A stretch of DNA of 18,019 nt from Tidjanibacter sp. (GTDB lineage Bacteria; Bacteroidota; Bacteroidia; Bacteroidales; Rikenellaceae): NCBI GenBank assembly GCA_017379955.1, contig JAFNVE010000115.1, positions 1 to 18,019 on the forward strand, in the 5' to 3' direction. Position 1 is the stretch's first letter, and each line of letters opens with the position of its first letter. The notes under the pieces are model-generated. The model was not told where the DNA came from, made no database searches, and saw nothing but the letters and a program-made list of their open reading frames with translations. A program made the translations under genes and the position numbers. Below, in pieces: positions 1 through 15,588 of this stretch.

Positions 1-74
1 CTGCAAGCAGCCTCTGCCCTCGCTTAATCGCAACGTTCCTATAATTCCCATTACTCCTATTACTCCCACAAACC

Positions 75-199
75 AAAAAAGTCATATGATTGAGGGAATT
101 TTAGGCGGGGGAGTCTTGACGGCCACGCGCATACTTGTCGTATGTAAGTGGTCGGCAAGGCTCCCCCAACACCAAATTCACCAATCAGATGACTTTTTT
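75..199. repeat. Structured palindromic repeat, copy A
   Basis: This 125-bp element is bounded by an 18-bp inverted repeat, AAAAAAGTCATATGATTG (75-92) against CAATCAGATGACTTTTTT (182-199), with one internal A/G mismatch. Inside it is a second inverted repeat of 20 bp (107-126 and 148-167) with three mismatches. At the apex is CATAC-TTGTC-GTATG (130-144). It begins 8 bases beyond the GH3 stop codon. Read on the minus strand the hairpin ends in a run of T, so it could serve as that operon's terminator. Copies B (9313-9432) and C (9449-9646) share the architecture; A and C also share AATTTTAGGCGG and AACACCAAATT. The structure is visible directly; a terminator role and mobility are inference. 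Confidence 0.8.
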
Positions 200-207
200 A
201 GGCTTTT

Positions 208-2562
208 TTACTTTTTGAGGACATTAAGCTCACGGGTAGGGTGAAGCACATCGTGAGTCTGCTCAACGATCTTCTCCTTAGCAACAGTGAGGGCTACCTG
301 AGCCTTCACGTCGCGCGACGAAGCAGCGAGCAGGATGTTGTAGTTACCAGCCTCGGTCACCCAAGCGCTGCGAGCAACATCGTACCAAGCAAGCTCGTAG
401 TCGGTGAAGTTGAAGGTAAGAGTCTGAGTCTCGCCAGCAGCCAACTCCTTGGTCTTAGCGAAAGCAACAAGCTCCTGCATAGGACGACCCTCCTCGATAG
501 CGGGTGCGTTCATATAAACCTCAACAACCTCCTTACCAGCAACCTTACCGGTGTTGGTAACGTCTACGGTAACGGTGTAAGCACCCTTGTCAGCTACCAA
601 AGTGGGGTTGCTGTACTCGAAGGTGGTGTACGACAGACCATAACCGAAGGGGTACGATACATCCTTACCGAACGAGTCGAAGTAGCGGTAACCTACATAT
701 ACATCCTCCTCATAGTTGGTGTAGTCAACGTTCTTGCGATCGTGCTTAGCATCGCCTACCGAGTTAGCACCAAACGAGAAGTCGATAACCTCTGCGTTGA
801 AGGGGAAGTTTGCACTCGAAGCGTGGTCCATATAGTCGATGGGGAAGGTCATCGAAAGTTTACCCGAGGGATTAACCTTACCTGCCAATACGTCAGCAAC
901 GGTGTTACCACCCTCCTGGCCTGCCTGCCAAGCGAGGAGCACTGCATCGGGAGTATTCTTCCACGAAGCAGTCTCAATAACACCACCTACGTTGAGAACA
1001 ACAACTACCTGCTTGCCGGCAGCGTGGAACGCAGCAGCAACATTGTCAATCAGACCCTTCTCCTCTGCGGTCAGAGCGAAGTCGCCCTCAACCTTACGGT
1101 CAGCAAACTCACCCGAGTTACGACCGATGGTGATAAGAGCAACGTCGCTGCCCTTAACAGCCTGTGCCAACTGACGCGAGTTGGGTACAAACTCACCTGC
1201 GCGCTCCTTGGTCATAAATGCGCTGAGCTGATCAACGGGACCTGCTGCAGCAGCCAGACGAGCAGCCTCTTCAGCAGCGTGCTTGGTGTACATATCCTTA
1301 ACCTCTGCATTTACAGCGTAACCAGCATTCTTCAAACCCTGCTCGAGGTCGATAACGTATGCCTTGTTTACATCACCCGAACCGGTACCGCCAGCGATGA
1401 AGTCGTAGGAGGTAGTACCGAAGAGTGCTACGTTCTTAATATTCTTAGCGAAGGGAAGAGCACCGTTGTTCTCCAAGAGTACCATACCCTCAGCAGCCGA
1501 GTTACGGGTAACCTGAGCGTGAGCGGTGAGGTCGGGCTGGTTGTCATAAGCGAAGCCTTTGAAGCGGGGAGTCTTAACGATAAGCTCCAATACTCGCTCA
1601 ACGCAGGTATCGAGATCCTCCATCGAGAGAGTACCGTTCTCAACAGCCTCGATGATATCGAAGTACTGACGGTCAGTACCGGGCATAATCAGGTCGTTAC
1701 CAGCGTGAATCTGTGCGGGCGAGGAGTTACCACCGAACCAGTCGGTCATAATAAGACCCTCGAAGCCCCACTCATCACGAGCGATATCGGTGAGAAGCTC
1801 GCGGCTCTCCGAAGTATAAACGCCATTGAGGTGGTTGTACGACGACATAATAGTCCAAGGCTGAGCATCCTTTACAGCAATCTCGAAACCTTTGAGATAG
1901 ATCTCACGGAGTGCACGAGGAGTAACGATAGCGTCGTTCATCTGACGGTTGGTCTCCTGGTTGTTCACTGCGAAGTGCTTAATCGAGGTACCTACGCCAT
2001 TGCTCTGAACACCATTAACCATTGCAGCAGTAATCTTACCGGTGAGGTAGGGGTCCTCCGAGTAGTACTCGAAGTTACGGCCACACAAGGGGTTACGGTG
2101 GATGTTGAGTGCGGGAGCAAGGAGCACGTCAGAACCATACTCCAAAACCTCCTCACCCATAGCCTTACCTACCTGCTCTACGAGCTCGGTGTTCCAAGTA
2201 CAAGCCATCAGAGTACCTACGGGGAAACCGGTGCAGTAGAAAGTAGCATCGGTACCCTCACGGGTGGGGCTGATACGCAGACCAGCAGGGCCGTCAGCGA
2301 GTACGATAGCGGGAATGCCAAGACGCTCGATAGCAGCGGTGGTACCTGCTGCACCAGGAACGAGGTCGTTAGTAGCACCTACAACAGCGGTCGAGCCATC
2401 GAAACCTGCCATACCGGTACCATTTACCAAACGAGCCTTCTCCTCAAGGGTCATTGCCTTAACGACCTTCTTGATGTTCTTCTCGTTGAGTTGGGGTTCC
2501 TTCTCGGAACATGCAGTGAGGCCTACAAACAAGACCGCAGCTGCGAGAATTACTTTCTTCAT
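208..2562 (-). CDS. Glycoside hydrolase family 3 lipoprotein (beta-glucosidase type)
   Basis: This 784-residue protein probably removes terminal beta-linked sugars (glucose or xylose) from oligosaccharides outside the inner membrane. The N-terminus is a lipoprotein signal with lipobox LTAC (Cys18), followed by SEKE, an acidic stretch resembling the Bacteroidota surface-export signal. GH3 landmarks in order are VLADGPAGLR (about 87-96), GRNFEYYSEDP (161-171), KHFAVNNQE (195-203) and the nucleophile motif IMTDW with Asp274. Then come the alpha/beta sandwich domain (roughly 370-600) and a C-terminal fibronectin III-like domain (about 690-765). Length is normal for the family. It is the last gene of a three-gene operon, 44 bp after a CE1 esterase gene. 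There is no SD; an A/T-rich leader precedes ATG. The family call is firm; the exact sugar specificity cannot be read from sequence. Confidence 0.93.
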   Translation of the reverse strand: MKKVILAAAVLFVGLTACSEKEPQLNEKNIKKVVKAMTLEEKARLVNGTGMAGFDGSTAVVGATNDLVPGAAGTTAAIERLGIPAIVLADGPAGLRISPTREGTDATFYCTGFPVGTLMACTWNTELVEQVGKAMGEEVLEYGSDVLLAPALNIHRNPLCGRNFEYYSEDPYLTGKITAAMVNGVQSNGVGTSIKHFAVNNQETNRQMNDAIVTPRALREIYLKGFEIAVKDAQPWTIMSSYNHLNGVYTSESRELLTDIARDEWGFEGLIMTDWFGGNSSPAQIHAGNDLIMPGTDRQYFDIIEAVENGTLSMEDLDTCVERVLELIVKTPRFKGFAYDNQPDLTAHAQVTRNSAAEGMVLLENNGALPFAKNIKNVALFGTTSYDFIAGGTGSGDVNKAYVIDLEQGLKNAGYAVNAEVKDMYTKHAAEEAARLAAAAGPVDQLSAFMTKERAGEFVPNSRQLAQAVKGSDVALITIGRNSGEFADRKVEGDFALTAEEKGLIDNVAAAFHAAGKQVVVVLNVGGVIETASWKNTPDAVLLAWQAGQEGGNTVADVLAGKVNPSGKLSMTFPIDYMDHASSANFPFNAEVIDFSFGANSVGDAKHDRKNVDYTNYEEDVYVGYRYFDSFGKDVSYPFGYGLSYTTFEYSNPTLVADKGAYTVTVDVTNTGKVAGKEVVEVYMNAPAIEEGRPMQELVAFAKTKELAAGETQTLTFNFTDYELAWYDVARSAWVTEAGNYNILLAASSRDVKAQVALTVAKEKIVEQTHDVLHPTRELNVLKK

Positions 2563-2606
2563 TTTACTTTTCTAATAGTTTTGTGATATAAATAGTTGTA
2601 CTAAAA

Positions 2607-3695
2607 TTACTCTTGTTTCTCAGTGGCAGGTTTCCAATACTGGCCAAGTCGGTTGACCAAAGTCACATAACTTGCCTCCCAGAACACCCAATCGTGCGCT
2701 CCCGAACGAAGAATATACTCGTGCGGGAAGCCCACCGATGCAAGGTAGTTGTGGGTATTGATATTGGCATACAGACACATAGAGTCCTCAGTGCCGCAAT
2801 CCATAATATAGGTCGGCAGCGAGCCAAAGTTATCTGCCGAGTAGCCCTCACGCTCGAAAATCTGTTTGAGCGAGGGCACCAACTGAGTACCCATACCCTC
2901 GACAGCACCACTCATCTCATAGCAGAGGAAGAACTCCTCGGGGTGAGTAAATGCGTAGTATGTACAGCCGAAGCCTCCCATCGACAGACCTGCAATCGCT
3001 GTCTGACTGCGCTCGGTGCTCACCGGGTAGTTACTCTCGATGTAGGGTTTGAGGTCGTTCCAGAAGAAACTCTCATAGTTGATACCCTTCATATAGCCAT
3101 CCACATAGAATGAGTCGTAGGCATTGGGCATCACCACAATCATCTCAGCCAGCTTACCGCCCTTAACAGCAGCATCTGTAGTCTGTTTGACCTTACCATT
3201 GTCAAGCCACTCGTTGTTGTGACTCCACATACCGTGAAGTAGGTAGAGTACGGGGTACTTCTTGCCTGTTTCGAGCGCCTCCTGATAGTCGGCAGGGAGA
3301 TAGATTGAGTACTTGCCTCGGTCGCCATTAAGGTTAGAGGTCGAGAGCGTCAAATCTTTCTGCACGCTACTTACAAGTCGTGCCTTCTGAGTGATGCCGA
3401 TAGCCACATCATCCATACCCTCTGCCGAGAAGGTAACAACAGCGGTGCGATCTTTATAGGCGGTGTTCTTGGGAACAGTGACTATCACTTTATTCTCCGA
3501 AACACTATTTACCCAATCCTCCGAGATAGTTACACTCCAATCTGTGGCATTGGTCTCGACCAAAATCTCGATATCTCCGCCCGCAGCATCAATATCATAG
3601 ATGGTCTTCGATGTTTTCAAGAAAAGATTACTCCCCTCACCACACGCCACCAGCATAAGTGATAGCAGCGTCATCCACACAAGGGCTCTCTTCAT
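2607..3695 (-). CDS. BACON-domain CE1-type esterase lipoprotein
   Basis: This 362-residue secreted esterase probably removes acyl groups (feruloyl or acetyl) from hemicellulose. The signal peptide ends in lipobox LVAC (Cys18). Residues about 25-105 form a BACON-like beta-sandwich, with a DWSV...DWV pattern and an ITQKA ending. This is a Bacteroidota domain thought to bind glycans or act as a spacer. The catalytic part is an esterase-D-like alpha/beta hydrolase with YLLHG (151-155), nucleophile elbow GLSMGG (Ser238), an acid near CGTED (about 304) and His334 in GAHDW. It sits 53 bp after the upstream esterase gene and 44 bp before the GH3 gene, and is surely cotranscribed with both. It differs in accessory domain from its neighbour, suggesting different substrates or cell positions. 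Ferulate versus acetate specificity is undecided. Confidence 0.88.
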   Translation of the reverse strand: MKRALVWMTLLSLMLVACGEGSNLFLKTSKTIYDIDAAGGDIEILVETNATDWSVTISEDWVNSVSENKVIVTVPKNTAYKDRTAVVTFSAEGMDDVAIGITQKARLVSSVQKDLTLSTSNLNGDRGKYSIYLPADYQEALETGKKYPVLYLLHGMWSHNNEWLDNGKVKQTTDAAVKGGKLAEMIVVMPNAYDSFYVDGYMKGINYESFFWNDLKPYIESNYPVSTERSQTAIAGLSMGGFGCTYYAFTHPEEFFLCYEMSGAVEGMGTQLVPSLKQIFEREGYSADNFGSLPTYIMDCGTEDSMCLYANINTHNYLASVGFPHEYILRSGAHDWVFWEASYVTLVNRLGQYWKPATEKQE

Positions 3696-3748
3696 AATTA
3701 AATTGTATTAGTTATTGGTTTGTTAAGGTTTGTCGGTAGAGGTAGTGG

Positions 3749-4897
3749 CTATTTGAAAATCTGAGGTACAAACTTGCTCAGATAGTCGCGCCAGTTACGC
3801 CAGATGTGACCACCCTCAGTCTCGTAGTAGATGTAGTCGTGACCACGAGCGTCGAGACCCTTCATAAAGTCGCGGTTGTTCTGGATAAGGAAGTCGGTGT
3901 TGCCACAAGCAATCCAATAGAGTTTCACACCCTTTGCAAACTGAGTGTCAACCTTCTGGTCTACGTTCTGGTAGATAGGCGAGCCCTGCTGCTGACCGTT
4001 CACGTTGAGAGCAGCCGAGAAAAGACCTACATAGTTAAACATATCGGGGTACTCCTTCGAGATATGCATCGAGTGGAAACCACCCATCGAAAGACCAGCG
4101 ATTGCACGGCTGCTCTTCTTAGCGATGGTGCGGTACTTGCCGTCGATGAACTTAACAACCTCGGGGAAAGCAGCCTCAAACGAACCCTCCATAGTCTTGG
4201 GCAGACCCATGCTGGGCACGGGGAAACCCTCGGGACCATAACCGGGAGCAGCCTGCTGCGAGATATTGCCATTGGTCATAACAACAATCATAGGCTCAGC
4301 CTCGCCCTTTGCGATGAGGTTATCGAGAATCTGCGATGCACGACCCAGATCCATCCAAGCCTCCTCGTCGCCACCAATACCGTGCAAGAGGTAGAGCACG
4401 GGGAAACGCTTCTTGCCATCATAAGCAGCGGGAGTGTAGACAGTCAGACGACGAGTGAAGTTCTCCGATGCACTGTAATACCAATCCTTGTGAATCGAGC
4501 CGTGAGGCACATCGTTAGTCAAATAGAGATCCGCCTGACCACCACCGATGATGAAGTAGTTGGTCACCGATGCCACGTCGCGAATCTGATATACATTCGA
4601 AGGGTCAGCAATCTTTACGCCGTCCATAGTAAATGCATAGCTGTAAAGTTCGGGTGCCAGAGGCTCGGTGGTGTACTCCCATACGCCACGCTCGTTCTGC
4701 ACCATATTAGCCACACCATCAGCGAAGTCACCCGATACCTGTACGGCACGAGCCTTGGGTGCGTTAAGACGGAAAGTTACCGAGTTGTCTGCATTAATCT
4801 CAGGCGATACAGTTGTTGCACCACCCCACAGCGCCTGCTGTGCCATAGCCGCAACGCTCATCATAAGAGCAACGGCAAGAATAGTAAGTTTTTTCAT
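3749..4897 (-). CDS. CE1-type esterase with N-terminal CBM48/E-set domain
   Basis: This 382-residue esterase resembles the feruloyl esterases of gut Bacteroidota. It starts with a classical Sec signal (MKKLTILAVALMM, likely cleaved after AMA, residue 19) and has no lipobox, so it is probably periplasmic. Residues about 30-118 form an E-set/CBM48-like domain (VTFRLNAPKARAVQVSGDF...). The catalytic domain carries YLLHG (169-173), nucleophile elbow GLSMGG (Ser270), Asp335 in CGNTD and His364 in GGHIW, a complete triad. It is the first gene of the operon, with a promoter candidate about 100 bp upstream and no SD. The combination of two CE1 esterases with a GH3 suggests finishing of decorated xylo-oligosaccharides. 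The esterase call is firm; the ferulic ester substrate is inferred from family resemblance. Confidence 0.9.
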   Translation of the reverse strand: MKKLTILAVALMMSVAAMAQQALWGGATTVSPEINADNSVTFRLNAPKARAVQVSGDFADGVANMVQNERGVWEYTTEPLAPELYSYAFTMDGVKIADPSNVYQIRDVASVTNYFIIGGGQADLYLTNDVPHGSIHKDWYYSASENFTRRLTVYTPAAYDGKKRFPVLYLLHGIGGDEEAWMDLGRASQILDNLIAKGEAEPMIVVMTNGNISQQAAPGYGPEGFPVPSMGLPKTMEGSFEAAFPEVVKFIDGKYRTIAKKSSRAIAGLSMGGFHSMHISKEYPDMFNYVGLFSAALNVNGQQQGSPIYQNVDQKVDTQFAKGVKLYWIACGNTDFLIQNNRDFMKGLDARGHDYIYYETEGGHIWRNWRDYLSKFVPQIFK

Positions 4898-4966
4898 AGT
4901 GTTTATTAGTTAATAGTGTTAATAATAGCCTTAAAAACGGGTACAAAAATCTTGTTTCGTAAACTC

Positions 4967-4985
4967 TTTGGTATATTATACCAAA
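4967..4985. promoter_or_regulatory. 19-bp perfect palindrome, candidate operator
   Basis: TTTGGTATA-T-TATACCAAA is a perfect 9-1-9 palindrome. It lies just downstream (minus-strand sense) of the -7 box at 4994-5001, so it would cover about +1 to +20 of the esterase/GH3 transcript. The one-base centre makes a DNA-binding dimer site more likely than an RNA hairpin. The regulator is not in this window. Confidence 0.55.
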
Positions 4986-4993
4986 ATAGTAGG

Positions 4994-5001
4994 CAAATAT
5001 A
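4994..5001 (-). promoter_or_regulatory. Candidate -7 box of the esterase/GH3 operon
   Basis: On the minus strand this reads TATATTTG, an exact match to the Bacteroidota -7 consensus TAnnTTTG. A weak -33-like TTTC lies 18 nt upstream. It would give a leader of about 90 nt before the first esterase gene. Confidence 0.55.
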
Positions 5002-5122
5002 CCCATTTACTTTCGGATTGAAATACTACTATCTTTCAAACCTATATCAATTTTGTTCAAAAGCAGGCGAATTGAGAGAATAAAGCCAATATACAGAGAG
5101 CAACCAGCAATCTTCGAGGTGG

Positions 5123-5156
5123 AATTATGGAATCTATCTTAATTATGGAAACTATC
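5123..5156. repeat. Pair of 16-bp direct repeats upstream of the esterase operon
   Basis: AATTATGGAATCTATC (5123-5138) and AATTATGGAAACTATC (5141-5156) differ at one base and repeat with an 18-bp period. They sit about 120-160 bp upstream of the esterase operon promoter and outside any gene. Position and geometry suit an activator site, but no regulator is encoded nearby. Confidence 0.5.
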
Positions 5157-5179
5157 ACTTCTCCGCTCCTCCCCAACAA

Positions 5180-5220
5180 AAAAACATCCGAGAGCAGTCG
5201 GACCACTCTCGGATGTTTTT
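5180..5220. terminator. Rho-independent terminator downstream of gcvT
   Basis: A perfect 15-bp stem, AAAAACATCCGAGAG (5180-5194) and CTCTCGGATGTTTTT (5206-5220), encloses an 11-nt loop. It lies about 36 bp beyond the gcvT stop. The A- and T-runs on either side make it symmetrical, so it could act in both directions and would shield the esterase operon from the gcvT transcript. Confidence 0.9.
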
Positions 5221-5256
5221 CTGTTTATCTCGGCTTGCGTATATCGCGTCTGCCGA

Positions 5257-6354
5257 TTAAACAAAAGGCAGTTTGACAACCTCGGCTTTGAGCAGTCTGC
5301 CGCGTACGGGGACATAGATAATTGAGCCGACAGCAGCCAGCGCCGAAGGCACATAGCCCATACCAACGCCCACCTTCAAGCAGGGCGACATAGTACCCGA
5401 AGTAACCGAGCCAATCACATTGCCCGCCTCATCTGCCAGGTCATAGCCGTGGCGAGGAATACCTCTGTCAATCATCTTAAAACCAACGAGTTTGCGGGTT
5501 GTACCCTCCTTCTTCTGTGCTTCAAGAACGGGTCGGTCGATAAAATCTTTACCCTCAGCAAACTTGGTAATCCAGCCCAAGCCCGCCTCGATAGGCGAAG
5601 TGGTGTCGTCGATATCGTTGCCATAGAGGCAGAAACCCTTCTCCAAGCGGAGAGTATCGCGTGCGCCCAGGCCGATATTCTTCAAGCCAAACTCCTCGCC
5701 AGCCTTCCACATAGCCTCCCAGAGTTGGTCTGCATCCTCGTTAGCCACATAAATCTCGCAGCCACCCGCACCTGTATAGCCGGTTGCCGAGAGGATAGCA
5801 CCCTTGATACCTGCCACCTCAGTCTTGACAAAGGTATAATAAGCCAAGTCCTCGATAGCCTCGGGGCACATCTTCTGCACGAGTTTCATCGCCAGAGGAC
5901 CCTGAATTGCCAGCTGGCAAATCTCGTCCGAAGCATTATAGAGTTCCTTGCCGGGGGTAAGACCAAATTTCTCGCCCTCTGCGCAGAGGTGAGCCCAATC
6001 CTTATCTACATTGGCAGCATTTACCACCAAGAGATAGGTAACCTCGTCAATGCGATAAACCAAAATATCATCCACAATACCACCCTTACCATTGGGCAGG
6101 CAGGAGTACTGTACCTTGCCGTCAAAGAGTTGTGCGACGTTGTTCGAGGTGACATACTGAAGGAAAGGGAGAGCCTTAGGACCCTTGACCCAAATCTCGC
6201 CCATGTGGCTAACGTCAAATACGCCCACCCCGTTACGAACGGTCAGGTGCTCGTCGTTGATGCCGCTAAATTCGATAGGCATATTGTAACCTGCAAACTC
6301 GGCCATCTTGGCTCCTGCTGCAATGTGATACTTGGTGAAAGCTGTTGTTTTCAT
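5257..6354 (-). CDS. gcvT: Aminomethyltransferase, glycine cleavage T protein
   Basis: GcvT moves the methylene group from the aminomethyl-lipoyl arm of the H protein to tetrahydrofolate and releases ammonia. It is cytoplasmic and works with GcvP, GcvH and lipoamide dehydrogenase. The 365-residue length is standard. Recognisable blocks are [31 protein letters not shown] (holding the conserved folate/catalytic region), [25 protein letters not shown] and a C-terminal barrel with [17 protein letters not shown]. The start ATG lies 19 bp after the stop of the GNAT-like gene with no SD, so the two are probably cotranscribed. The genes for GcvH and GcvP are not in this window, so the system is split on this chromosome, as is common in this group. 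A strong hairpin follows the gene. Confidence 0.96.
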
Positions 6355-6373
6355 TGTTCTATGTTATTGATTT

Positions 6374-7600
6374 TTAATTATTTTGTTTCTCTCTTGCTGC
6401 GGCTGCCTGTTGTGCCGACATCAGTCTGGGGCAACGCTTGAACTCCTTGTTCGGGTCAAAAAGCAGGCGATAGGTGATGTGGCGTTTGAAGCGTTTAGCA
6501 CCCACATACTGCTCGACCATACGCATCATCACGGGGTTGAAGTCACCCATCCAGGCGAGTTCCATCTCCTTATACTGCTTGCACTCGCCAGCCTCAACCG
6601 TCTCGCCAAAGCAGTTGATGATTCCCGACTCAATGCCGCGACCCTGATACTCAGGCGTTACGGCAAAGATAATGGCAAAAATGCGGTCGAGCTTCTTGGT
6701 CTTAATCCTGTACAGCAGACGCAGTGTGTTGAACAGGTTTAGTTTGCCGTTAAAATCGCCAATACCTTTATTCAGGTCGGGTACCATAATATAGAAACCA
6801 ATCGGCTCGCCCTTGTGGAACGCCAAATAGATGAGGTTGGGGTCGATAATCAGCTTCATCGTCTTGAACATCTTCTCGGTGTCCTCCTTGGTGAACTGAC
6901 GCACGCCGGGGAAGTGTGCCCACGCCTTATTATATATGGTGCGGAAGATTTCGGGCAGGGTATCGTAGTCCGCCTTGGTGATGTGGCGGAAGTGGTACTC
7001 GCCACTCTCCTTCAAACGCTTGACACGATTGAGCACACTCTCGCTAAGACCTTTGGTGGTCAACTCGCGTGAGTAGGTGTGCTGGTTGAAATATACCTTA
7101 AACCCGTAATTCTCAAATAGTTGTTGGTAGTATGGAGGGTTGTATGGGTTGGCATAGAGAGGCTTACTCTCAAACCCCTCAACGAGCAATCCCCACCACT
7201 CATCACGCGAGCCGAAGTTGATAGGGCCATCCATCGCCTCCATCCCTTTGCTCTGCAACCACGCCTTTGCAGTATCGAAAAGCAGGTTGGCAACTTCCTG
7301 AGAATCAACACTCTCGTAGAATCCGCAACCACCCGTTGGCTGCTCCTCAATAGAGGCCTGCTCGTGGTTGTAGAAGGCAGCAATACGGCCCACAACCACA
7401 CCCTTCTCATCGCGCACTACCCAGCGGATAGCCTCACCACCGGCAAAGAGCAGGTTTTTCTCAGGATTGAAGACACCATTAATATCCCCGTCGAGTGGGC
7501 ATACCCAATATTTGTTGCCTTTGTAGAGTCGCTTGGGCAGGTCAAGAAACTCCTTTTCCAACCTCTTACCAACAACCTCTTCGATAATATACTTACCCAT
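6374..7600 (-). CDS. Conserved hypothetical protein with GNAT-like acetyltransferase fold
   Basis: This 408-residue cytoplasmic protein belongs to a conserved family seen in Bacteroidota, but I know no assigned substrate. There is no signal peptide or membrane segment. The N-terminal half carries W/Y-rich blocks (NKYWVCPLDGDIN; GPINFGSRDEWWGLLVEGF; NPYNPPYYQQLFENYGF). The C-terminal half has the GNAT acetyl-CoA-binding signature in VTPEYQGRGIESGII, preceded by IYLAFHKGEPIGFYIMVPD, a typical GNAT beta4 strand pair. It is the first gene of a two-gene unit with gcvT (19-bp gap) and has its own candidate promoter. Pairing with gcvT hints at amino-acid or one-carbon metabolism, but that is only positional. 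The GNAT-like fold is fairly sure; the reaction is unknown. Confidence 0.85.
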   Translation of the reverse strand: MGKYIIEEVVGKRLEKEFLDLPKRLYKGNKYWVCPLDGDINGVFNPEKNLLFAGGEAIRWVVRDEKGVVVGRIAAFYNHEQASIEEQPTGGCGFYESVDSQEVANLLFDTAKAWLQSKGMEAMDGPINFGSRDEWWGLLVEGFESKPLYANPYNPPYYQQLFENYGFKVYFNQHTYSRELTTKGLSESVLNRVKRLKESGEYHFRHITKADYDTLPEIFRTIYNKAWAHFPGVRQFTKEDTEKMFKTMKLIIDPNLIYLAFHKGEPIGFYIMVPDLNKGIGDFNGKLNLFNTLRLLYRIKTKKLDRIFAIIFAVTPEYQGRGIESGIINCFGETVEAGECKQYKEMELAWMGDFNPVMMRMVEQYVGAKRFKRHITYRLLFDPNKEFKRCPRLMSAQQAAAAREKQNN

Positions 7601-7626
7601 CTTCTTGTGCTTTATGTTAGTCCCTA

Positions 7627-7634
7627 CAAAATTA
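7627..7634 (-). promoter_or_regulatory. Candidate -7 box for the GNAT-like gene and gcvT
   Basis: On the minus strand this reads TAATTTTG, matching TAnnTTTG, 26 bp before the ATG of the GNAT-like gene. No clear -33 TTTG is seen, so support is moderate. Confidence 0.45.
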
Positions 7635-7739
7635 ATAAAGTTTTGCAGTTTTTATCCTTCCGATGGCTTTTTTATTCTCAAAGATTGGTAAAAGTGAAAA
7701 TTATTTTGGAATTTTGTGACAAACTCTAAGAAAAGGTTG

Positions 7740-7747
7740 TATATTTG
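7740..7747 (+). promoter_or_regulatory. Candidate -7 box for gdhA
   Basis: TATATTTG matches the Bacteroidota -7 consensus exactly, with a TTTG at 7713-7716 as a -33 candidate (23-nt spacing, slightly long). The leader to the gdhA ATG would be about 63 nt and is A-rich without an SD. Confidence 0.6.
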
Positions 7748-7816
7748 AGAATGGATTGCAACTATTTCTATAAAATTGAATAGTTACCTTAAAACTACAA
7801 TAAAAACTAAAAGACA

Positions 7817-9154
7817 ATGAACGTACAGAAATTGATGGCCGAGTTGGAGCGTAAGCACCCCGGCGAGAGTGAGTATTTGCAGGCGGTACGCGAGGTTCTC
7901 GTGACCGTAGAGGAGGTCTATAACCAGCACCCCGAGTTCGAGGCAGCACGCATCGCAGAGCGTATCGTAGAGCCCGACCGTAGTTTTACCTTCAAGGTAG
8001 TGTGGGTTGATGACAAGGGTGAGGTGCAGGTGAATACAGGCTACCGCTTCCAGTTCAACAACGCAATCGGCCCCTACAAGGGCGGTCTGCGTTTCCATCC
8101 CAGCGTAAACCCCAGCATCCTGAAGTTCCTCGGCTTCGAGCAGTGCTTCAAGAATGCCCTCACCACACTCCCTATGGGTGGTGCAAAGGGTGGTTCGGAC
8201 TTCAACCCCAAGGGTAAATCCGATGCAGAGGTTATGCGTTTCTGCCAGGCCTTTATGACCGAGCTCTGGCGTCACATTGGTCCCGAGACCGACGTGCCCG
8301 CAGGTGATATCGGTGTTGGTGGCCGCGAGATTGGCTACCTCTATGGTATGTATCGCAAGCTCGCTTTGGAGAATACAGGTGTCCTTACCGGTAAGGGTAT
8401 GACCTTCGGTGGCTCGCTGATTCGCCCCGAGGCAACAGGTTATGGTGCAGTATATTTCCTCTGCCAGATGTTGGCTGAGAAGGGTATGGATATCAAGGGT
8501 CAGACCATCGCAATCTCGGGCTTCGGTAACGTGGCTTGGGGCGCAGCAAGCAAGGCAACAGAGCTTGGTGCTAAGGTGGTAACCATCTCGGGTCCTGACG
8601 GTTATATCTACGACCCCGCTGGTCTGGACAAAGAGAAAATCGCTTATATGCTCGAGCTCCGCGCATCGAACAACGACGTGGTTGCTCCCTATGCAGAGAA
8701 GTTCCCCGGCTCGACTTTCACCCCCGGTCGCAAACCTTGGGAGGTTAAGGTGGATATCGCTATGCCTTGCGCTACCCAGAACGAGCTCAACGGCGAGGAC
8801 GCTAAGCAGTTGGTGGCAAATGGCGTGAAGATTGTGGCTGAGGTGTCGAATATGGGTTGTACCCCCGAGGCTATCGAGACCTTCATCAGCGCAAAACTTC
8901 CCTACGGCCCCGGTAAGGCTGTCAACGCAGGTGGCGTAGCAACCTCGGGCTTGGAGATGAGCCAGAACTCGATGAAGTATAACTGGACTGCCGAGGAGGT
9001 AGACGCTAAGTTGCACCAGATTATGTCGTCGATTCACGCTGCTTGCTTGGAGTATGGTACTGAGCCTGACGGCTTTATCAACTATATGAAGGGTGCAAAC
9101 GTCGCTGGCTTTATGAAGGTAGCGAAGTCGATGTTGGCTCAGGGTATTTTGTAG
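7817..9154 (+). CDS. gdhA: NADP-type glutamate dehydrogenase
   Basis: GdhA joins ammonium to 2-oxoglutarate to make glutamate, the main ammonia-assimilation step in many gut Bacteroidales; it is a cytoplasmic hexamer. The 445-residue length and the sequence fit the small hexameric NADP(H) class. Key blocks are GPYKGGLRFHP (85-95), LPMGGAKGGSDF with catalytic Lys124, PAGDIGVGGREIGY with the conserved Asp163/164 region, the Rossmann turn SGFGNVA (234-240), and VNAGGVATSGLEMSQN near the C-terminus. Cofactor preference for NADPH is inferred from overall resemblance rather than a single residue. It is monocistronic: divergent from the GNAT-like gene, convergent with infC, and followed by a strong terminator. 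It is the only plus-strand gene in the window. Confidence 0.97.
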   Translation: MNVQKLMAELERKHPGESEYLQAVREVLVTVEEVYNQHPEFEAARIAERIVEPDRSFTFKVVWVDDKGEVQVNTGYRFQFNNAIGPYKGGLRFHPSVNPSILKFLGFEQCFKNALTTLPMGGAKGGSDFNPKGKSDAEVMRFCQAFMTELWRHIGPETDVPAGDIGVGGREIGYLYGMYRKLALENTGVLTGKGMTFGGSLIRPEATGYGAVYFLCQMLAEKGMDIKGQTIAISGFGNVAWGAASKATELGAKVVTISGPDGYIYDPAGLDKEKIAYMLELRASNNDVVAPYAEKFPGSTFTPGRKPWEVKVDIAMPCATQNELNGEDAKQLVANGVKIVAEVSNMGCTPEAIETFISAKLPYGPGKAVNAGGVATSGLEMSQNSMKYNWTAEEVDAKLHQIMSSIHAACLEYGTEPDGFINYMKGANVAGFMKVAKSMLAQGIL

Positions 9155-9208
9155 TGCCATAGAGTTATCCGACAGACACATATTGCACTTCTCGGAGTGT
9201 AAACTATA

Positions 9209-9250
9209 AAAGAAGCGAGAGTAGTATCAAAAAACTACTCTCGCTTCTTT
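9209..9250. terminator. Rho-independent terminator of gdhA
   Basis: A perfect 17-bp stem, with left arm AAAGAAGCGAGAGTAGT (9209-9225) and its reverse complement at 9234-9250, encloses an 8-nt loop and is flanked by A and T runs. It begins 54 bp after the gdhA stop. It is symmetrical enough to work in both directions. Confidence 0.92.
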
Positions 9251-9269
9251 ATAATTATGCATTAATAAT

Positions 9270-9446
9270 AAGCGTCACAGACGCTTCCCCAGAATATAAC
9301 CAACAACGCCAAGAAGCCACTATGGCTGAGGGATTTTGGGGCTTCGTGAAACGAGGCTGTCCGCAGCATACTTGACGTATGTGAGGAACAGCCTCGTAAG
9401 GGAAGTGCAAAAATCACCAGCCAGATGGCTTCGTGAAGCGTCACAG
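9270..9446. repeat. 11-bp direct repeats flanking structured repeat B
   Basis: AAGCGTCACAG occurs at 9270-9280 and again at 9436-9446, bracketing repeat copy B. It could be a target-site duplication or the scar of a local duplication. A second 11-bp direct repeat, GGCTTCGTGAA, is at 9340-9350 and 9427-9437. Confidence 0.45.
9313..9432. repeat. Structured palindromic repeat, copy B
   Basis: The outer arms are GAAGCCACTATGGCTG (9313-9328) and CAGCCAGATGGCTTC (9418-9432). The inner arms are CGAGGCTGT (9352-9360) and ACAGCCTCG (9388-9396), and the apex is CATAC-TTGAC-GTATG (9367-9381). The stem sequences differ from copies A and C but remain complementary, while the apex and the TATG/CAGA pair around an unpaired A/G position are kept. 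It lies between gdhA and infC in sequence that encodes nothing recognisable and is separated from copy C by 16 bp. Confidence 0.75.
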
Positions 9447-9448
9447 CC

Positions 9449-9646
9449 AAAAATAGTCGTATGGCTTAGGAAATTTTAGGCGGAGGGGTCTCGGGGGAAG
9501 CGAGCATACTTATCGTATGTGAGCAATCCCCGAGGCCCCTCCAAAGTTGCGATTTAGCTGAGAGCAGAGACTGCTCGCAGGCTCTGCCGAAGCGGAGCAA
9601 CTAAAAGGAACTTAACACCAAATTTACAAGCCAGACGGCTATTTTT
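9449..9646. repeat. Structured palindromic repeat, copy C, overlapping the infC stop
   Basis: The outer arms are AAAAATAGTCGTATGGCTT (9449-9467) and AAGCCAGACGGCTATTTTT (9628-9646). The inner 15-bp arms are 9482-9496 and 9528-9542, with one T/G mismatch. The apex is CATAC-TTATC-GTATG (9505-9519). The right arm includes the last two lysine codons and stop codon of infC (9639-9646). Read on the minus strand, the transcript folds and then reaches a T-run, so a terminator role for the seven-gene operon is plausible. It is longer than copies A and B because of a nested hairpin at 9545-9602. Confidence 0.8.
9545..9602. repeat. Nested 58-bp hairpin inside repeat C
   Basis: AGTTGC (9545-9550) and GCAACT (9597-9602) bound a segment absent from copies A and B. 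Within it, CAGAG-A-CTGC-TC-GCAG-G-CTCTG (9565-9586) forms a second hairpin. It looks like an insertion of another small palindromic unit into the repeat. Confidence 0.55.
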
Positions 9647-10244
9647 TAGGTTTTGGTGCAAGCATCATCGTCATACGCTTGCCCTCCAACTTAGGCATCA
9701 TCTCGACCTTAGCAATCTCTTCGAGATCGGTGGCGAAACGCAACAGCAGAATCTCACCCTGCTCCTTGAAGACAATCGAACGACCGCGGAAGAATACATA
9801 GGCCTTAACCTTGGCACCCTCCTTGATGAAGTTCTGCGCGTGGCGCAACTTGAAGTTGTAGTCGTGATCGTCGGTCTGAGGGCCGAAGCGAATCTCTTTT
9901 ACAACCACCTTCACCGATTTGGCTTTCAGCTCCTTAGCGCGCTTTTTCTGCTGATACAGGAATTTCTGGTAGTCAGCCAAACGGCACACTGGGGGATCAG
10001 CCTTGGGAGAGATCTCGATAAGGTCGAGTTCCTTCTCGTCGGCCAGTCGCAACGCCTCACGAATAGGAAGCACAAGGGCTCCCTCGATCTCCTCACCCAC
10101 TACTCGTACGTTGGGTGCGGTGATCTCATCGTTTACGCGATATTGGTTCTGGGCAGCGTTTTTCGGGGGCTGCGGGCCGCGTCCTTTATTCTGCTGACCG
10201 GCAGGATTAGCCGGCTTAGGCGGAAAGGGTTTTGTCGTGTTGAT
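9639..10244 (-). CDS. infC: Translation initiation factor IF-3, with ATC start codon
   Basis: IF3 binds the 30S subunit, blocks premature 50S joining and proofreads the start codon and initiator tRNA. From the proposed ATC the product is 201 residues. It has a Pro/Lys/Gln-rich extension (1-35), an N-domain opening with [14 protein letters not shown] (35-48), a Lys-rich linker (about 115-125) and a C-domain ending in KPKK. The frame upstream contains a TAA, then no ATG, GTG or TTG before the conserved VNDEI block. A perfect TAAGGAGG (10253-10260) lies 8 nt before ATC. A GTG at 10098-10100 would delete the start of the N-domain and lacks an SD. Non-AUG starts (AUU, AUC, AUA) are well known for infC and underlie its autoregulation. 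It follows thrS by 61 bp; the stop lies in repeat C. Confidence 0.93.
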
Positions 10245-10252
10245 AGTTTTGT

Positions 10253-10260
10253 CCTCCTTA
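10253..10260 (-). promoter_or_regulatory. Perfect Shine-Dalgarno of infC
   Basis: On the minus strand this reads TAAGGAGG, fully complementary to the usual 16S anti-SD, with an 8-nt spacer to the ATC at 10242-10244. Nearly all other genes here lack an SD, as usual in Bacteroidota, so its presence both fixes the infC start and is notable in itself. Confidence 0.85.
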
Positions 10261-10305
10261 GTTAATTATACAAATCAGTTGTTTCTCTTGTGTTGGTTGC
10301 GATAC

Positions 10306-12255
10306 CTACTCTTTGATATCCACTCCTTCGACCTCGGCAGCTACCATCTCCTTCACCAATGCGGCAAACTGATCGGCAGTCATCACGCCCTTGTCGCCCT
10401 CGCCCTGTGCGCGTACCGATACTGTTCCATCGGCCTGCTCCTTCTCACCAACGATGATAAGGAAGGGGATTCGTTTGAGCTCGTTATCGCGGATTTTCCT
10501 GCCAATCTTCTCGTTACGGCAGTCAACCTCAGTGCGAATATCGCAATTATTTAGATATTTTGAAACTTTTTCAGCATAATCGTTGAATTTTTCGCTAATT
10601 GGCAGTACAACAGCCTGCTGAGGGGTGAGCCACAAGGGGAATTTACCGCCTGTATGCTCGAGCAACACAGCCACGAAACGCTCCATCGAGCCGAAGGGTG
10701 CACGGTGAATCATAATGGGGCGGTGAGGCTTGTCGTCAGCACCGGTATATACGAGGTCGAAACGCTCGGGCAGGTTGTAGTCCACCTGGATAGTACCAAG
10801 CTGCCACTTGCGACCGATAGCATCCTTCACCATAAAGTCGAGCTTGGGACCATAGAAAGCGGCCTCGCCATACTCAACAACGGTGTTCAGACCCTTGTCC
10901 GAAGCAGCCTTGATGATAGCAGCCTCTGCCTTCTCCCAATTCTCGTCCGAGCCGATATACTTCTCGCGGTTGTTGGGGTCACGCAACGAAATCTGAGCGG
11001 TGTACTCCTTGAAGTTCAGGGTCTTGAAGATATAGAGCACGATGTCGATAACGTTCTCAAACTCCTCCAAGAGTTGGTCGGGACGTACGAAGAGGTGTGC
11101 ATCGTCCTGAGTAAATCCACGCACGCGGGTCAGACCGTGCAACTCACCACTCTGCTCATAGCGATATACGGTACCGAACTCCGCAAAGCGCAAGGGGAGA
11201 TCCTTGTACGAACGGGGTTTGAAGCGGTAGATCTCGCAGTGGTGGGGGCAGTTCATAGGTTTGAGCAGGAACTCCTCGCCCTCATAGGGGGTATGGATAG
11301 GCTGGAACGAATCCTTACCGTACTTAGCATAGTGACCCGAGGTTACATAGAGGTCCTTCATACCGATATGGGGAGTGATAACCTGCTCGTAGCCGTAACG
11401 CTTCTGCACATTGCGCAAGAAGTTCTCCAAGCGGCCACGCAGTGCAGCACCCTTGGGCAACCACATAGGCAGACCCTGACCTACACGCTGCGAGAAGGTG
11501 AAGAGTTCGAGTTCCTTGCCGAGCTTACGGTGGTCGCGCTTCTTAGCCTCCTCCATCATCGCTACATACTCATCCAGGAGCGCCTTTTTGGGGAAAGAGA
11601 TACCGTAGATACGGGTAAGCATCTTGTTCTTCTCATCGCCACGCCAATAAGCACCCGCTACCGAAGTCAGTTTGATAGCTTTGATAGGTGCGGTGTTGGG
11701 CAAGTGGGGACCACGGCAAAGGTCGGTAAATGCGCCGTTGGTGTAGAAGCTGATAGTGCCATCTTCGAGACCCTCAATCAACTCTACCTTATACTGATCG
11801 CCCTTCTCGGTGAAGGTTTTCAGAGCCTCAGCCTTAGCAATCTCGGAGCGAACGATAGGCTCCTTGGTGCGTGCCAACTCCTCCATCTTCTTCTCGATGG
11901 CTGCCAAATCACCCTCGGTGATAGGGGTGGGCGAATCTACATCATAATAGAAACCGTTCTCAATGCTCGGGCCGATACCGAACTTAATGCCGGGGTAGAG
12001 CGACTCGAGAGCCTCCGCCAAAAGGTGCGACGAGGTGTGCCAGAAGGTACGGCGGCCATCCTCATCCTCCCACTTGTTGAGTTTGAGAGTAGAATCCTGG
12101 TTGATAGGTGTGCTCAGGTCGCACACTACATCGTTGATAGTAGCCGAGAGGACCTCCTGTGCCAATCGCTGGCTGATACCTTCGGCAATCTGCATCGCAG
12201 TTACTCCCTCGGCATACTCACGAATGTTGCCGTCGGGAAAAGTGATTTTAATCAT
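10306..12255 (-). CDS. thrS: Threonine-tRNA ligase
   Basis: ThrS charges tRNA-Thr with threonine in the cytoplasm and clears mischarged serine. The 649-residue length is full. Domains in order are TGS (about 1-60, starting IKITFPDGN); the second additional editing domain, with HTSSH (His73, His77) and TDLCRGPH (Cys180, His184); and the class II catalytic core. In the core, LKPMNCPHH supplies the zinc ligand Cys336, motif 2 is [17 protein letters not shown], and motif 3 is [11 protein letters not shown]. The anticodon-binding domain follows (about 540-649). It lies 43 bp after the CPBP gene and 61 bp before infC. The thrS-infC linkage is widely conserved. No T-box or E. coli-like operator is evident in the short leader. 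Confidence 0.98.
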
Positions 12256-12298
12256 AGGTTTTGTTTGTTTTTATAGTTTTGTTTCGAGCGTTTCCGCG

Positions 12299-13237
12299 TT
12301 ACGAGGCGAAACTTCGCTCTGCTTTATTTTTATCTTTAAGTAGCATCCAGAGAGTCATACCCCCAAACACCACTGTTGTTACAATACTTCCTTCCAGGCC
12401 GAACTCTCCGCCACTTATCCAGCGGGGTGCGCCCTCCAACACACTGAAACTGAGCAGTGTATCTCCCGCACTACTACCACTCACCGCCACACCAAAGATA
12501 TTACCCTGGCAGAAGTTCCACGCCGAGTGGAGCGCTCCGATACCCCAGATGTTGTCGTATCGCAACATAAACACTGCTGCAAAGATACCAAACAACACAA
12601 GGTTTACAAGCGATAGCGGGGTCAAACCTGCATTTCCTCCGTGCATAAATGCAAATAGCAGCGAGGTAATCGCCACCGATAGCCACACCGGCATACGACC
12701 CGCAAGGCTCACAGTGAGGTAGCCACGCAACATAACCTCCTCGCTCATACCCTGGACCAAAAAGCCCACAAGGGTCAGCAACCAGAGAGTCATATTAGGC
12801 TTTGTTGCCTCGCTTATCCCCAATCCGCCCATAGCCAGCGCAAGTAGCAGTGCCACCGAGCACATAGTCAGACCCGTTCCGAAGCCTTTGAGGTAGTGTC
12901 GCCACCACCCCCTCCTCACAAAACCCATTGAGGCCATCGAGCGACCCTCCAATACCTTAATATATAGTATCGCTCCGAGTATCGGGAAGATGGTCATAAA
13001 TAGTGAGCCGAGCATACTGTTCTCCGCAGAGAATATCTCATAGACGCTATCTGCTCCACCTCCAAAAAGCCCGATACAAACGCCTATCAAAATAGTGGCA
13101 AGCAACATCGAGCCGATATATATCAACGGAAAGAGTATAATCTGCCAGAGCGGGTTGGGCTTGATGCGCGCCTTAGCCGCCGAGGAGAGTATTACCGAAC
13201 TGCTCCTGAAGCTATATTCTCTTTCTCCTATCTTCAC
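12299..13237 (-). CDS. CPBP-family intramembrane metalloprotease (CAAX/Abi type)
   Basis: This is a 312-residue multi-span membrane protein of the CPBP (Abi/CAAX protease) family. Visible hydrophobic spans include IILFPLIYIGSMLLATILIG, a segment near MTIFPILGAILYI, one near MCSVALLLALAMGG, and several in the C-terminal half. The glutamic-protease signature is intact: EEVMLRG (EExxxR), then FAFMHGG with the motif 2 histidine, and HSAWNFCQG near the end. The substrate is unknown; relatives process prenylated or signal proteins or give bacteriocin immunity. I choose the GTG at 13237, one base after the pdxA stop, because GAGGAGG lies 9 nt upstream inside pdxA. A further upstream in-frame ATG at 13303 would overlap pdxA by 65 bp. 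Translation is probably coupled to pdxA. Confidence 0.88.
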   Translation of the reverse strand: MKIGEREYSFRSSSVILSSAAKARIKPNPLWQIILFPLIYIGSMLLATILIGVCIGLFGGGADSVYEIFSAENSMLGSLFMTIFPILGAILYIKVLEGRSMASMGFVRRGWWRHYLKGFGTGLTMCSVALLLALAMGGLGISEATKPNMTLWLLTLVGFLVQGMSEEVMLRGYLTVSLAGRMPVWLSVAITSLLFAFMHGGNAGLTPLSLVNLVLFGIFAAVFMLRYDNIWGIGALHSAWNFCQGNIFGVAVSGSSAGDTLLSFSVLEGAPRWISGGEFGLEGSIVTTVVFGGMTLWMLLKDKNKAERSFAS

Positions 13238-13238
13238 T

Positions 13239-14336
13239 CTACAAAGCCTCCTCAATCTCCGGCAGGTCGCTTGCCGAAACATCGCGACCCTTATCGCGCT
13301 CATAGTGGCGCAGGGGGTTACGACTCATCTCGGCATAACGCTGACGATTGCGATATACATCTATCGCCATATAGATAGCATTGCGCATCGACTGTGCATC
13401 TGCCTTATCCGAGCCAGCAATATCATAGCCTGTGCCGTGGTCGGGACTGGTACGCACGATATCCAGACCTGCGGTATAGTTCACGCCATCGGGCGAGAGA
13501 GTCTTGAAGGGGGTCAAGCCCTGATCGTGGTACATAGCAACCACTGCATCGTACTTCTTCCACGCACCGCTTGCAAAGAAGCCATCTGCTGCAAAGGGAC
13601 CAAAAGCAAGGATCTTCTCACCAAACGCCTCTTCGATAGCGGGCTTGATAATCTCCTGCTCCTCCTTACCCAACAGGCCACCATCGCCAGCGTGGGGGTT
13701 GAGTGCCAATACTGCAATGCGGGGAGCAACAACACCAAAATCCTCAATGAGCGAGCGATTGAGCACCTTCAAAGTACCAACAATGCCCTCCTTTGTGAGG
13801 TGTGCGCTCACCTCCGATACGGGAAGGTGGATGGTGGCGAGTGCCACACGCAGATTCTCGCTACACATAATCATCACAGGCTCGCCCTCGCGCTCAGCAG
13901 CCAGAAACTCGGTATGACCGGTGTAGGGGAAGTTCTCTCCGTGCACATTTTCCTTGTTGATAGGGGCGGTAATGAGCAGATCCAAATCACCGGCATCGAT
14001 ATCCTCCATCGCCTTCTGCAATGCTGTAACAGCCACCGCACCCGACTCGGCAGTTGCTCTGCCTACATCGATACGGATATCCTCCGGGCCACACTCTACA
14101 AGATTCACACGCTTGGGAGCAGCCTCGGCAGCCGACTGTACAAGAGATACGGAGAAGTTCTCCACACCCTCGATGCCACGTTTGTAAAATGCAAACGCCT
14201 TTGCAGAGCCATACACAACGGGGATGATATTATCGTAGATGCGGCTATCGGCAAGTGCTTTGATAATCACCTCTGTACCGACGCCGCCAAGGTCGCCTGC
14301 GGTGATACCTGCACGCAAAACTCTATTCTCACTCAT
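13239..14336 (-). CDS. pdxA: 4-hydroxythreonine-4-phosphate dehydrogenase
   Basis: PdxA oxidises 4-phosphohydroxy-L-threonine, and the product condenses with deoxyxylulose 5-phosphate (via PdxJ) to make pyridoxine 5'-phosphate, the DXP-dependent vitamin B6 route. The 365-residue protein is slightly longer than the E. coli enzyme. Conserved blocks are GDLGGVGTEVIIKAL at the N-terminus, PINKENVHG with YTGHTEFLA, ALNPHAGDGGLLG, YHDQGLTPFKTL and VRTSPDHGTGYDIAG. Together they provide the metal-binding histidines and the phosphate and NAD sites. A C-terminal Arg/Asp-rich tail extends past the usual end. It lies 29 bp after trmB and overlaps the SD region of the CPBP gene. The function is well supported. 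Confidence 0.97.
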   Translation of the reverse strand: MSENRVLRAGITAGDLGGVGTEVIIKALADSRIYDNIIPVVYGSAKAFAFYKRGIEGVENFSVSLVQSAAEAAPKRVNLVECGPEDIRIDVGRATAESGAVAVTALQKAMEDIDAGDLDLLITAPINKENVHGENFPYTGHTEFLAAEREGEPVMIMCSENLRVALATIHLPVSEVSAHLTKEGIVGTLKVLNRSLIEDFGVVAPRIAVLALNPHAGDGGLLGKEEQEIIKPAIEEAFGEKILAFGPFAADGFFASGAWKKYDAVVAMYHDQGLTPFKTLSPDGVNYTAGLDIVRTSPDHGTGYDIAGSDKADAQSMRNAIYMAIDVYRNRQRYAEMSRNPLRHYERDKGRDVSASDLPEIEEAL

Positions 14337-14365
14337 ATATTATTTCTCTGTTTTTCTCGTCAATT

Positions 14366-15094: not shown

Positions 15095-15118
15095 CTATCT
15101 CTGTTTTTACTTTGTTTC

Positions 15119-15577
15119 CTATTCTCGGGTTATGCCAATCGCCCACACACCCTCCACCCTGCGGGTCGCTGAGTGAGTGAAACGAAAGGTGTAGTTGCCC
15201 TCCTCGGCAAGCCTTACTCCTGCCACGAGCGGTTGTTCCCACTCCTGCATATACGAATGCTCCGCCTTCGGGTCGCCATAGAGCGTGGTGCGAAAGAGAG
15301 CCTGCTCGCCACTCGGAGCCTCAACCGACACGGTGAGTGCCAATGAGTCGAAATCGTAGCGCGAGTCGCTCCTCACAACAAGCCTTAGGTCGCTCAGCGA
15401 GAGTGTGTCGCTATTGGGGAGTTCGACGGCAATGCTGCGGCCTCTGGTCCAACCCTCGGGGTCGACTGAGGTAAGGGAGGTCTCAATAGGCGAGGTGCAT
15501 CCAACCATAGCAAGCACAATCGCCGCCATCGTTACCACACCTCGGAGCACTCCTGCACCACCGCTAACACCACGCAT
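15119..15577 (-). CDS. gldH: GldH-like lipoprotein
   Basis: This small lipoprotein of about 152 residues resembles GldH, first found as a gliding-motility protein in Flavobacterium but present in non-gliding Bacteroidales too, where its role is unclear. The N-terminus is a signal peptide with lipobox AMVGC, followed by a beta-rich domain (LRLVVRSDSRYDFDSLALTVSVE; YTFRFTHSATRRVEGVWAIGI), as in that family. The position directly after a PSP1/RicT gene supports the call. I choose the ATG at 15577. A GTG at 15589 overlapping the last base of the ricT stop codon is an alternative that adds four residues. The region is GC-rich compared with the rest. Family assignment is probable; a role in motility is not implied. 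Confidence 0.8.
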   Translation of the reverse strand: MRGVSGGAGVLRGVVTMAAIVLAMVGCTSPIETSLTSVDPEGWTRGRSIAVELPNSDTLSLSDLRLVVRSDSRYDFDSLALTVSVEAPSGEQALFRTTLYGDPKAEHSYMQEWEQPLVAGVRLAEEGNYTFRFTHSATRRVEGVWAIGITRE

Positions 15578-15588
15578 CACTCTCACCA

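Follow-up and report, generated by a model that had tools for sequence, protein, structure and literature searches.

The 18,019-nucleotide stretch of DNA analyzed here (hereafter, the window) comes from Tidjanibacter sp., a member of the Rikenellaceae (assembly GCA_017379955.1, contig JAFNVE010000115.1, positions 1 to 18,019), and it contains three large hairpin elements that lie among otherwise ordinary genes. The genome to which it belongs, G000, is a 1.49-Mb draft that is 77% complete, and the ten window proteins that we scanned are a glycoside hydrolase family 3 (GH3) enzyme, two esterases, gcvT, an acetyltransferase-like protein, a gdhA-like protein, infC, thrS, a CAAX protease, and a PSP1 protein. 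A preliminary description of the window had proposed three hairpins of a shared plan, and we found all three at the places it gave. It had set their limits at 75-199, 9313-9432, and 9449-9646; the elements are real, with somewhat different limits under a covariance model (Table 1), and the third contains an insert. An Rfam search of the window gave no match at the elements and two sub-threshold microRNA rows elsewhere.

Table 1. Positions of the hairpin elements and adjoining genes in the window
Feature	Position	Strand	Apex	Remarks
Element 1	70-202	-	130-144	Covariance model, model positions 1-134; 3' of GH3 gene
Element 2	9305-9438	-	9367-9381	Subtype TTTTGCACTTCCC...GGGAAGTGCAAAA; second of two consecutive elements between infC and gdhA
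Element 3	about 9449-9645	-	9505-9519	Starts on infC stop codon; contains insert
Insert within element 3	about 9543-9613	none		71 bp; dispersed repeat; insert end read from sequence
GH3 gene	208-2562	-		Stop codon 208-210, 9 bases before element 1
infC (translation initiation factor IF-3)	9639-10100	-		Stop codon 9639-9641, inside first bases of element 3
Glu/Leu dehydrogenase gene (gdhA-like)	7817-9154	+		Convergent with infC

The apex pattern of the elements, CATACTTNNCGTATG, occurs at 20 exact places in the G000 genome, compared with none for a reversed control. A covariance model (R1) built from 18 G000 copies, aligned on the strand on which the apex loop reads GNNAA, returned 110 rows at E<=0.1 in this genome, and 73 places were kept after opposite-strand echoes, a 34-base contig-end piece (C83:1-34), and rows weaker than E 6e-4 had been dropped. 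The elements belong to a family of nested palindromes of ~130 bp, with full units of about 120-135 bp, that occupies at least 73 places in G000. Our models describe it as an unbranched hairpin of 134 positions, which agrees in length and in its single palindrome with the enterobacterial repetitive intergenic consensus (ERIC, or IRU). Elements 1 and 2 fold more strongly than dinucleotide shuffles on both strands, with z scores of -8.40 and -9.45 on the minus strand and -10.55 and -8.65 on the plus strand.

RNAalifold predicted 43 pairs in the 18 G000 copies, 26 of them with at least one double change. In an alignment of 73 Rikenellaceae copies (A4; 71 distinct), 89.1% of stem cells pair, compared with 63.6% in shuffles, and double changes occur at 38 of the 43 pairs, compared with 32.5 in shuffles, figures that are biased towards structure by an alignment fitted to the model. 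None of 500 shuffles equaled the alignment on any measure, and sliding the partner by 1-3 columns left 39-50% paired. Single-sided changes are few and double changes many. The stems differ between copies yet stay complementary, as had been claimed, and the wider picture of a multicopy family of hairpins with compensated changes in their stems, and of a mobile one, was also right. The genome search and the covariation test, both set beforehand as the checks that could overturn it, yielded further copies and complementarity above that of shuffled sequence.

Other parts of the hairpin hardly vary. Three pairs, two in the apex and one below the internal loop, are invariant among the 71 distinct rows, and the unpaired bases beside the apex stem read TCA on the left in 69 of 73 rows and CTGC (57), CTTC (5), or CTCC (4) on the right. 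That these mismatches stay constant next to stems that change freely suggests a recognized structure. The apex, which had been described as fixed, is fixed in this species group, but its stem varies in relatives (CTTAC/GTAAG, TTTAC/GTAAA, CCTAC/GTAGG). On the GNNAA strand we counted 3068 Watson-Crick, 99 G-U, 243 A-C, and 618 other pairs in 67 copies, the A-C total including constant columns and 6 of the 73 copies being left out for want of a clear apex. There is no excess of G-U over A-C on this transcribed strand and thus no sign of selection for the GNNAA RNA strand in particular; the opposite strand folds better (-66.6 versus -57.2 kcal/mol for element 1 and -64.0 versus -58.0 kcal/mol for element 2).

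The family has a marked preference in where it sits. An upstream gene was called for 70 G000 copies; it lies on the GNNAA strand for 69 of them, and for 39 the element begins -3 to +4 bases from the stop codon of this gene. We also used a measure free of gene calls, in which an open frame of at least 80 codons stops -20 to +25 bases from the left end of a copy, with the right end as the control and only copies testable at both ends counted. Such frames were found at 34 left ends versus 2 right ends of 49 copies in G000, at 49 versus 1 of 58 in other Rikenellaceae, at 12 versus 1 of 15 in the Enterobacterales rows of a broader model introduced below (R3; L367 and L382 are one site), and at 1 versus 0 of 3 in a metagenome-assembled genome (MAG) labeled Cyanobacteria. 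The stop-codon rule is therefore valid in two groups that are far apart and does not extend to the rest. De Gregorio in 2005 is said to have found that the ERIC copies on stop codons share one orientation, and the same single orientation on stop codons was found in G000, in other Rikenellaceae, and in the Enterobacterales rows.

Hairpins that sit in sense orientation right behind stop codons could be ordinary intrinsic terminators that diversified in place and are not mobile. Runs of at least four T near the right end (48 of 73 copies) and at least four A near the left end (49 of 73) mark two thirds of copies, and they fit a two-sided terminator. Diversification in place is nonetheless very improbable in our judgment: the same apex and internal loop occur in distant bacteria, close species differ in the presence or absence of elements, with clean empty sites in the relative G006, the same insert-bearing element lies behind two different genes in two species, and the terminators of element-free relatives start, by eye, some 20-90 bases past the stop codon. 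Separately, a perfect 17-bp stem with a T-tail lies between gdhA and element 2 (window 9209-9250) and is an ordinary terminator-like hairpin.

Part of the evidence for mobility comes from G006, a close relative that is 94-96% identical to G000 in the window region. Element 1 (C157_70) and the copy at C10_6087 are absent from the orthologous G006 sites, and the infC stop codon carries an element in 6 of the 8 genomes examined, with none in G003 and G009. Of 35 sites whose upstream flank lies in the retrieved G006 sequence, 11 have no apex by pattern, and at least two of these (C197 and C180) hold an element all the same. At C186_5255 a second element with flanking TA is present in G000, and the G006 sequence there is GACTAAAAATTAGCC; two further sites, C93_291 and C30_1823 (the latter with a tail of ~40 bases), also fit a repeated TA by eye, and C83_13338 is an internal deletion in G006. 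The insert-bearing element 3 matches G006 C31:91002-91198 end to end (91%), there behind another gene, and the G000 counterpart of that G006 locus (C197) is an element without the insert. One family by sequence and structure, with many copies and strong hairpins, is thus present or absent at orthologous sites, and insertion probably occurs at a TA, often that of TAA or TAG.

Several observations concern the surroundings of the copies. Contigs end within 300 bases of the right side of the element in 22 of the 55 G000 element contigs and on the left side in 3, perhaps because further repeats lie behind the elements. The tails behind many G000 and G006 elements are composite intergenic arrays of short modules, namely GCGTCTGTGACGC hairpins, GGGTCGCAGACCC, runs of AATTCAAAATTCAAGATTC, and right arms of further elements that stand alone. 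Compared with G006 C53, the relative orientation of gdhA and infC has changed in window 7700-10400, and this rearrangement adjoins the elements. The 64-bp core of the element 3 insert (9543-9607) gave 25 matching rows, 12 in G017, 11 in G012, and 1 each in G013 and G020, and window bases about 1-36 resemble its repeat family by eye.

Shared sites do not always carry the same hairpin. Across the inner 70 bases, 23 comparable G000/G006 sites divide into 8 at 97-100% identity, 13 below 75% with flanks at 82-99%, and two between; with the extra element C186_5255 excluded, the inner stem differs at 12 of 22 shared sites and is the same at 8 of 22. At C186_222 the flank is 98.8% identical and the inner part 71%, and C83_15082 has the same outer arms around an inner stem that differs in both of its arms. 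These differences suggest that replacement of whole inner stems is a source of the covariation, much of which could then have arisen by exchange or re-insertion, without base-by-base compensation. The preliminary description had read compensatory change as selection on the fold; the near-constant mismatches agree with it in pointing to a recognized structure, but stem exchange or re-insertion could account for much of the covariation itself. Covarying stems among repeat copies are no proof by themselves of selection on each base pair.

A further route to complementary stems is fold-back template switching (quasi-palindrome correction), by which stems would covary mainly without selection on each pair. 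The scarcity of single-sided relative to double changes and the lack of a G-U excess on the sense strand are what such a process would leave, and in the element at the 3' end of infC in G013 (L246), 12 bases from the end of the coding sequence are mirrored in the right arm (AAATCTAAAAAG / CTTTTTAGATTT), as if copied from the gene. We consider it unlikely as the main source, however, since complementarity stops near the element ends, the mismatches adjoining the apex persist, and the largest changes are accounted for by whole stems that differ at shared sites. The mean score for complementarity past the ends was 0.81 versus 0.54 with shuffled partners in 67 G000 copies and 0.84 versus 0.62 in 74 others, and no copy of either set (0/67 and 0/74) scored 6 or more. 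We also rejected the idea that outer arms are copied from the neighboring gene as a general rule, because complementarity barely passes the element ends; G013 infC resembles such a case.

What moves the elements was approached through transposase profiles. The proposal that they are REP/BIME-like repeats moved by RAYT proteins (Y1 transposases) recognizing the fold was not borne out: we obtained no hit to PF01797 (Y1_Tnp) in the 15 genomes of the genus that carry elements, whose completeness runs from 59% to 99%, an E. coli control was positive, and the only match among 23 genomes is in G007, which has no elements. Near-constant unpaired bases at fixed positions of a palindrome would suit recognition of a single-stranded fold, but the elements are at least three times as long as REP units, which span 20-40 bp according to the accessible part of PMC3733652, and three sites fit a repeated TA; we regard this origin as extremely improbable. 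The elements could instead be miniature inverted-repeat transposable elements (MITEs) of an IS630-type transposon, as has been proposed for the ERIC-related MITEPlu5 of Photorhabdus, whose ends are described as similar to those of IS630-type insertion sequences in what was available of PMC6267812. The three TA sites and the TA ends of Holosporales copies are in keeping with this, but PF13358 (DDE_3, IS630) gave no hit above the threshold in any of 23 genomes, draft or complete, with three weak matches in element-free genomes only, a negative that is limited by the 77% completeness of G000 and by the chance that another DDE family serves; we think this reading quite unlikely. In one Holosporales MAG, no autonomous partner with the same ends was found at the four single-end loci looked at; most ends there form inverted pairs about 130-146 bp apart, with TA at the copy ends. 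Integron attC sites were also weighed and set aside, with no search aimed at them, since the copies occur one at a time beside ordinary genes.

We surveyed 60 genomes, G000 included, scoring 56 candidates per genome at E<=0.01, and 17 matched: 15 of 23 genomes of the genus, none of 13 from other genera of the family (one genome each), and two from other families. Within the genus, G018 has a contig start, and G020 a stretch, in common with MAGs filed as Tidjanibacter. Among 394 sampled Bacteroidota genomes (G000 included; 8 candidates scored per genome, which makes the counts lower bounds), at least 37 match, in at least 6 of 172 genera, and 32 of the 37 fall in two genera of one family of another class. 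A scan for the apex and internal loop pattern over a one-genome-per-species collection of 84,980 species found at least 114 stretches, and the matches listed include Rikenellaceae, Bacteroidaceae, other Bacteroidales MAGs, two Holosporales MAGs, Candidatus Pantoea deserta, and the Cyanobacteria-labeled MAG, with the taxonomic labels of MAGs taken as filed; viral contigs gave no matches to the apex pattern. A covariance model built from A4 (R2) scored the Holosporales rows at 48.9-79.3 bits, most across the full model and some over its middle, and a sequence-only hidden Markov model of Rikenellaceae copies finds the Holosporales (E 4.7e-6 to 4e-16), Pantoea (2e-5), and Bacteroidaceae copies. 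Whole-genome searches returned 40 and 24 rows at E<=0.01 in the Holosporales, 46 in the Cyanobacteria MAG, and 5 in Pantoea (echoes included). In another Bacteroidota genus, two copies (L355 and L358) begin right after what appears, from a look at the sequence, to be a tRNA 3' end (ctcgagggttcgaatccctccctct).

The ERIC consensus given in PMC2759123, as far as the accessible text goes, has ends TATACCC...GGGTATA (E. coli), with CTGCGTT and CGCCTT at matching places, and in its fold a CTTAC/GTAAG stem tops a TCA/CTC internal loop. The anatomy common to the elements and to this consensus is CTGCGTT...TCA-YNTAC/GTANR-CTSC...CGCCTT. We searched six ERIC loci (five sites, as L214 and L217 are one site in two E. 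coli strains) with successively broader models, whose E values are rough owing to short calibration. R1 gave no convincing match (6.3 bits, E 2, second of 4 rows); of the 15 rows that R2 returned, the top six include five of the loci (E 7e-5 to 0.46), and the sixth locus is at E 6.5. The broadest model, R3, contained no gammaproteobacterial sequence, its 66 rows having come from Rikenellaceae, other Bacteroidota, Holosporales, and the Cyanobacteria MAG, and it ranked the six loci 1-6 of 16 (E 2.7e-7, 3.5e-7, 2.9e-5, 0.0016, 0.0087, and 0.027), the next row being at 1.8. R3 found no ERIC match on the opposite strand at E<=10. Since that strand is equally palindromic, R3 responds to more than palindromes as such. 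In the order of Pantoea, 28 of 119 genomes match R3 at E<=0.01, Pantoea itself included. Given the R3 and R2 rankings, the shared anatomy, and the intermediate copies, the elements are probably distant kin of enterobacterial ERIC, though this falls short of proof.

We conclude that the elements are probably nonautonomous miniature mobile palindromes of the ERIC/IRU type, ~130 bp long, that act as 3'-end modules in this Rikenellaceae genus. We observed directly that copies in sense orientation, with their left end at the stop codon of the preceding gene, are in strong excess, and that inner stems differ at shared sites of two close species. Insertion at the TA of TAA or TAG would keep the stop codon, and the mRNA of the upstream gene would run into the hairpin. 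The hairpin may then work as a two-sided terminator, as a stability or processing element, or as both, in the manner reported for Yersinia ERIC; the available part of PMC2229807 describes cotranscription and an orientation-dependent loss of upstream mRNA via an exposed RNase E site. The Bacteroidota copies occupy comparable places, and we favor a mobile 3'-end module, with termination and mRNA stability as its candidate modes. A trans-acting protein may recognize the apex with its TCA/CTSC internal loop, and the covariation of the stems may come from the exchange of nested inner palindromes between copies and from the persistence of foldable copies only. We also entertain, tentatively and with more doubt than belief, a joint reading in which ERIC is the enterobacterial branch of an old mobile-palindrome family across at least Bacteroidota, Alphaproteobacteria, Gammaproteobacteria, and the Cyanobacteria MAG. 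Under it, a trans-acting factor that reads the apex and the TCA/CTSC loop would aim copies sense-wise at stop codons in at least two groups, and seated copies would swap inner stems as nested cassettes, so that the site stays and the hairpin changes.

A number of results weigh against the idea of ERIC-type mobile 3'-end modules. The stop-codon rule is weak in the ERIC loci themselves (3 versus 2 of 6) and absent in Holosporales (1 versus 5 of 12) and in other Bacteroidota (1 versus 2 of 8). A sequence-only profile of Rikenellaceae copies finds no ERIC, so the link to ERIC rests on structure, short motifs, and rough E values, and the terminal repeats are not those of ERIC, with ends that read AAAAAGYC...GRCTTTTT here versus TATACCC...GGGTATA in E. 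coli. No mobilizing gene was found with the Y1 and IS630 DDE_3 profiles, and the right-end TA is not visible in most copies, only three sites fitting a repeated TA by eye. Loss followed by re-insertion at the same stop codon, or misassembly of the drafts, a concern given the 22 of 55 G000 element contigs that break off near an element, could also have produced the different inner stems. As for termination, a run of at least four T at the right end is present in only 48 of the 73 copies, and a terminator scan, whose stem and loop limits are unsuited to such long hairpins, reports none of the three elements.

One feature of the window outside these subjects is a 781-codon open frame antisense to the GH3 gene (241-2586, plus strand), which is probably a by-product of codon usage.

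An ERIC relative with tens of copies in gut Bacteroidota, whose close species differ at many sites, would offer a second, independent system. It could address what moves ERIC, why copies land on stop codons in one orientation, and whether they are terminators or mRNA stability elements. ERIC is placed in Enterobacteriaceae and Vibrionaceae in the accessible part of PMC10969869, and a literature search, mostly without subscription papers, found in the text it reached no paper on ERIC-type repeats outside Gammaproteobacteria.

Among known systems, REP/BIME repeats with RAYT resemble the elements in being dispersed intergenic palindromes with constant mismatches, and they differ in their shorter units and in the Y1 gene, for which the element-bearing genomes here gave no match. 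Two other MITE families can be likened by description only, from the accessible portions of their papers. BrickBuilt of Porphyromonas gingivalis is likewise a family of the Bacteroidales and is reported to be strictly intergenic (PMC10969869), but it contains a minisatellite (PMC4596501). QMITE2 of Coxiella burnetii is of similar size (150-190 bp) and shares the stable stem and the location mainly in 3' untranslated or intergenic regions (PMC5896051), but it has 7-11 nt direct repeats and a GTAG REP. The likeness to ERIC/IRU/RU-1 of Enterobacteria and Vibrios (including MITEEc1, and MITEPlu5 in Photorhabdus) goes further. ERIC has a length of 127 bp versus about 130 here, and both form one long imperfect hairpin with the TCA/CTSC loop under the YNTAC/GTANR apex and the CTGCGTT...CGCCTT flanks. 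TA at the termini, target duplication, and an orientation-dependent effect on upstream mRNA are listed as traits of ERIC in what was available of PMC2229807, and three sites here fit, by eye, a repeated TA. Unlike ERIC, the elements reside in another phylum, have other terminal repeats and no sequence-only match to it, often show no right-end TA, and differ in their inner stems at shared sites.

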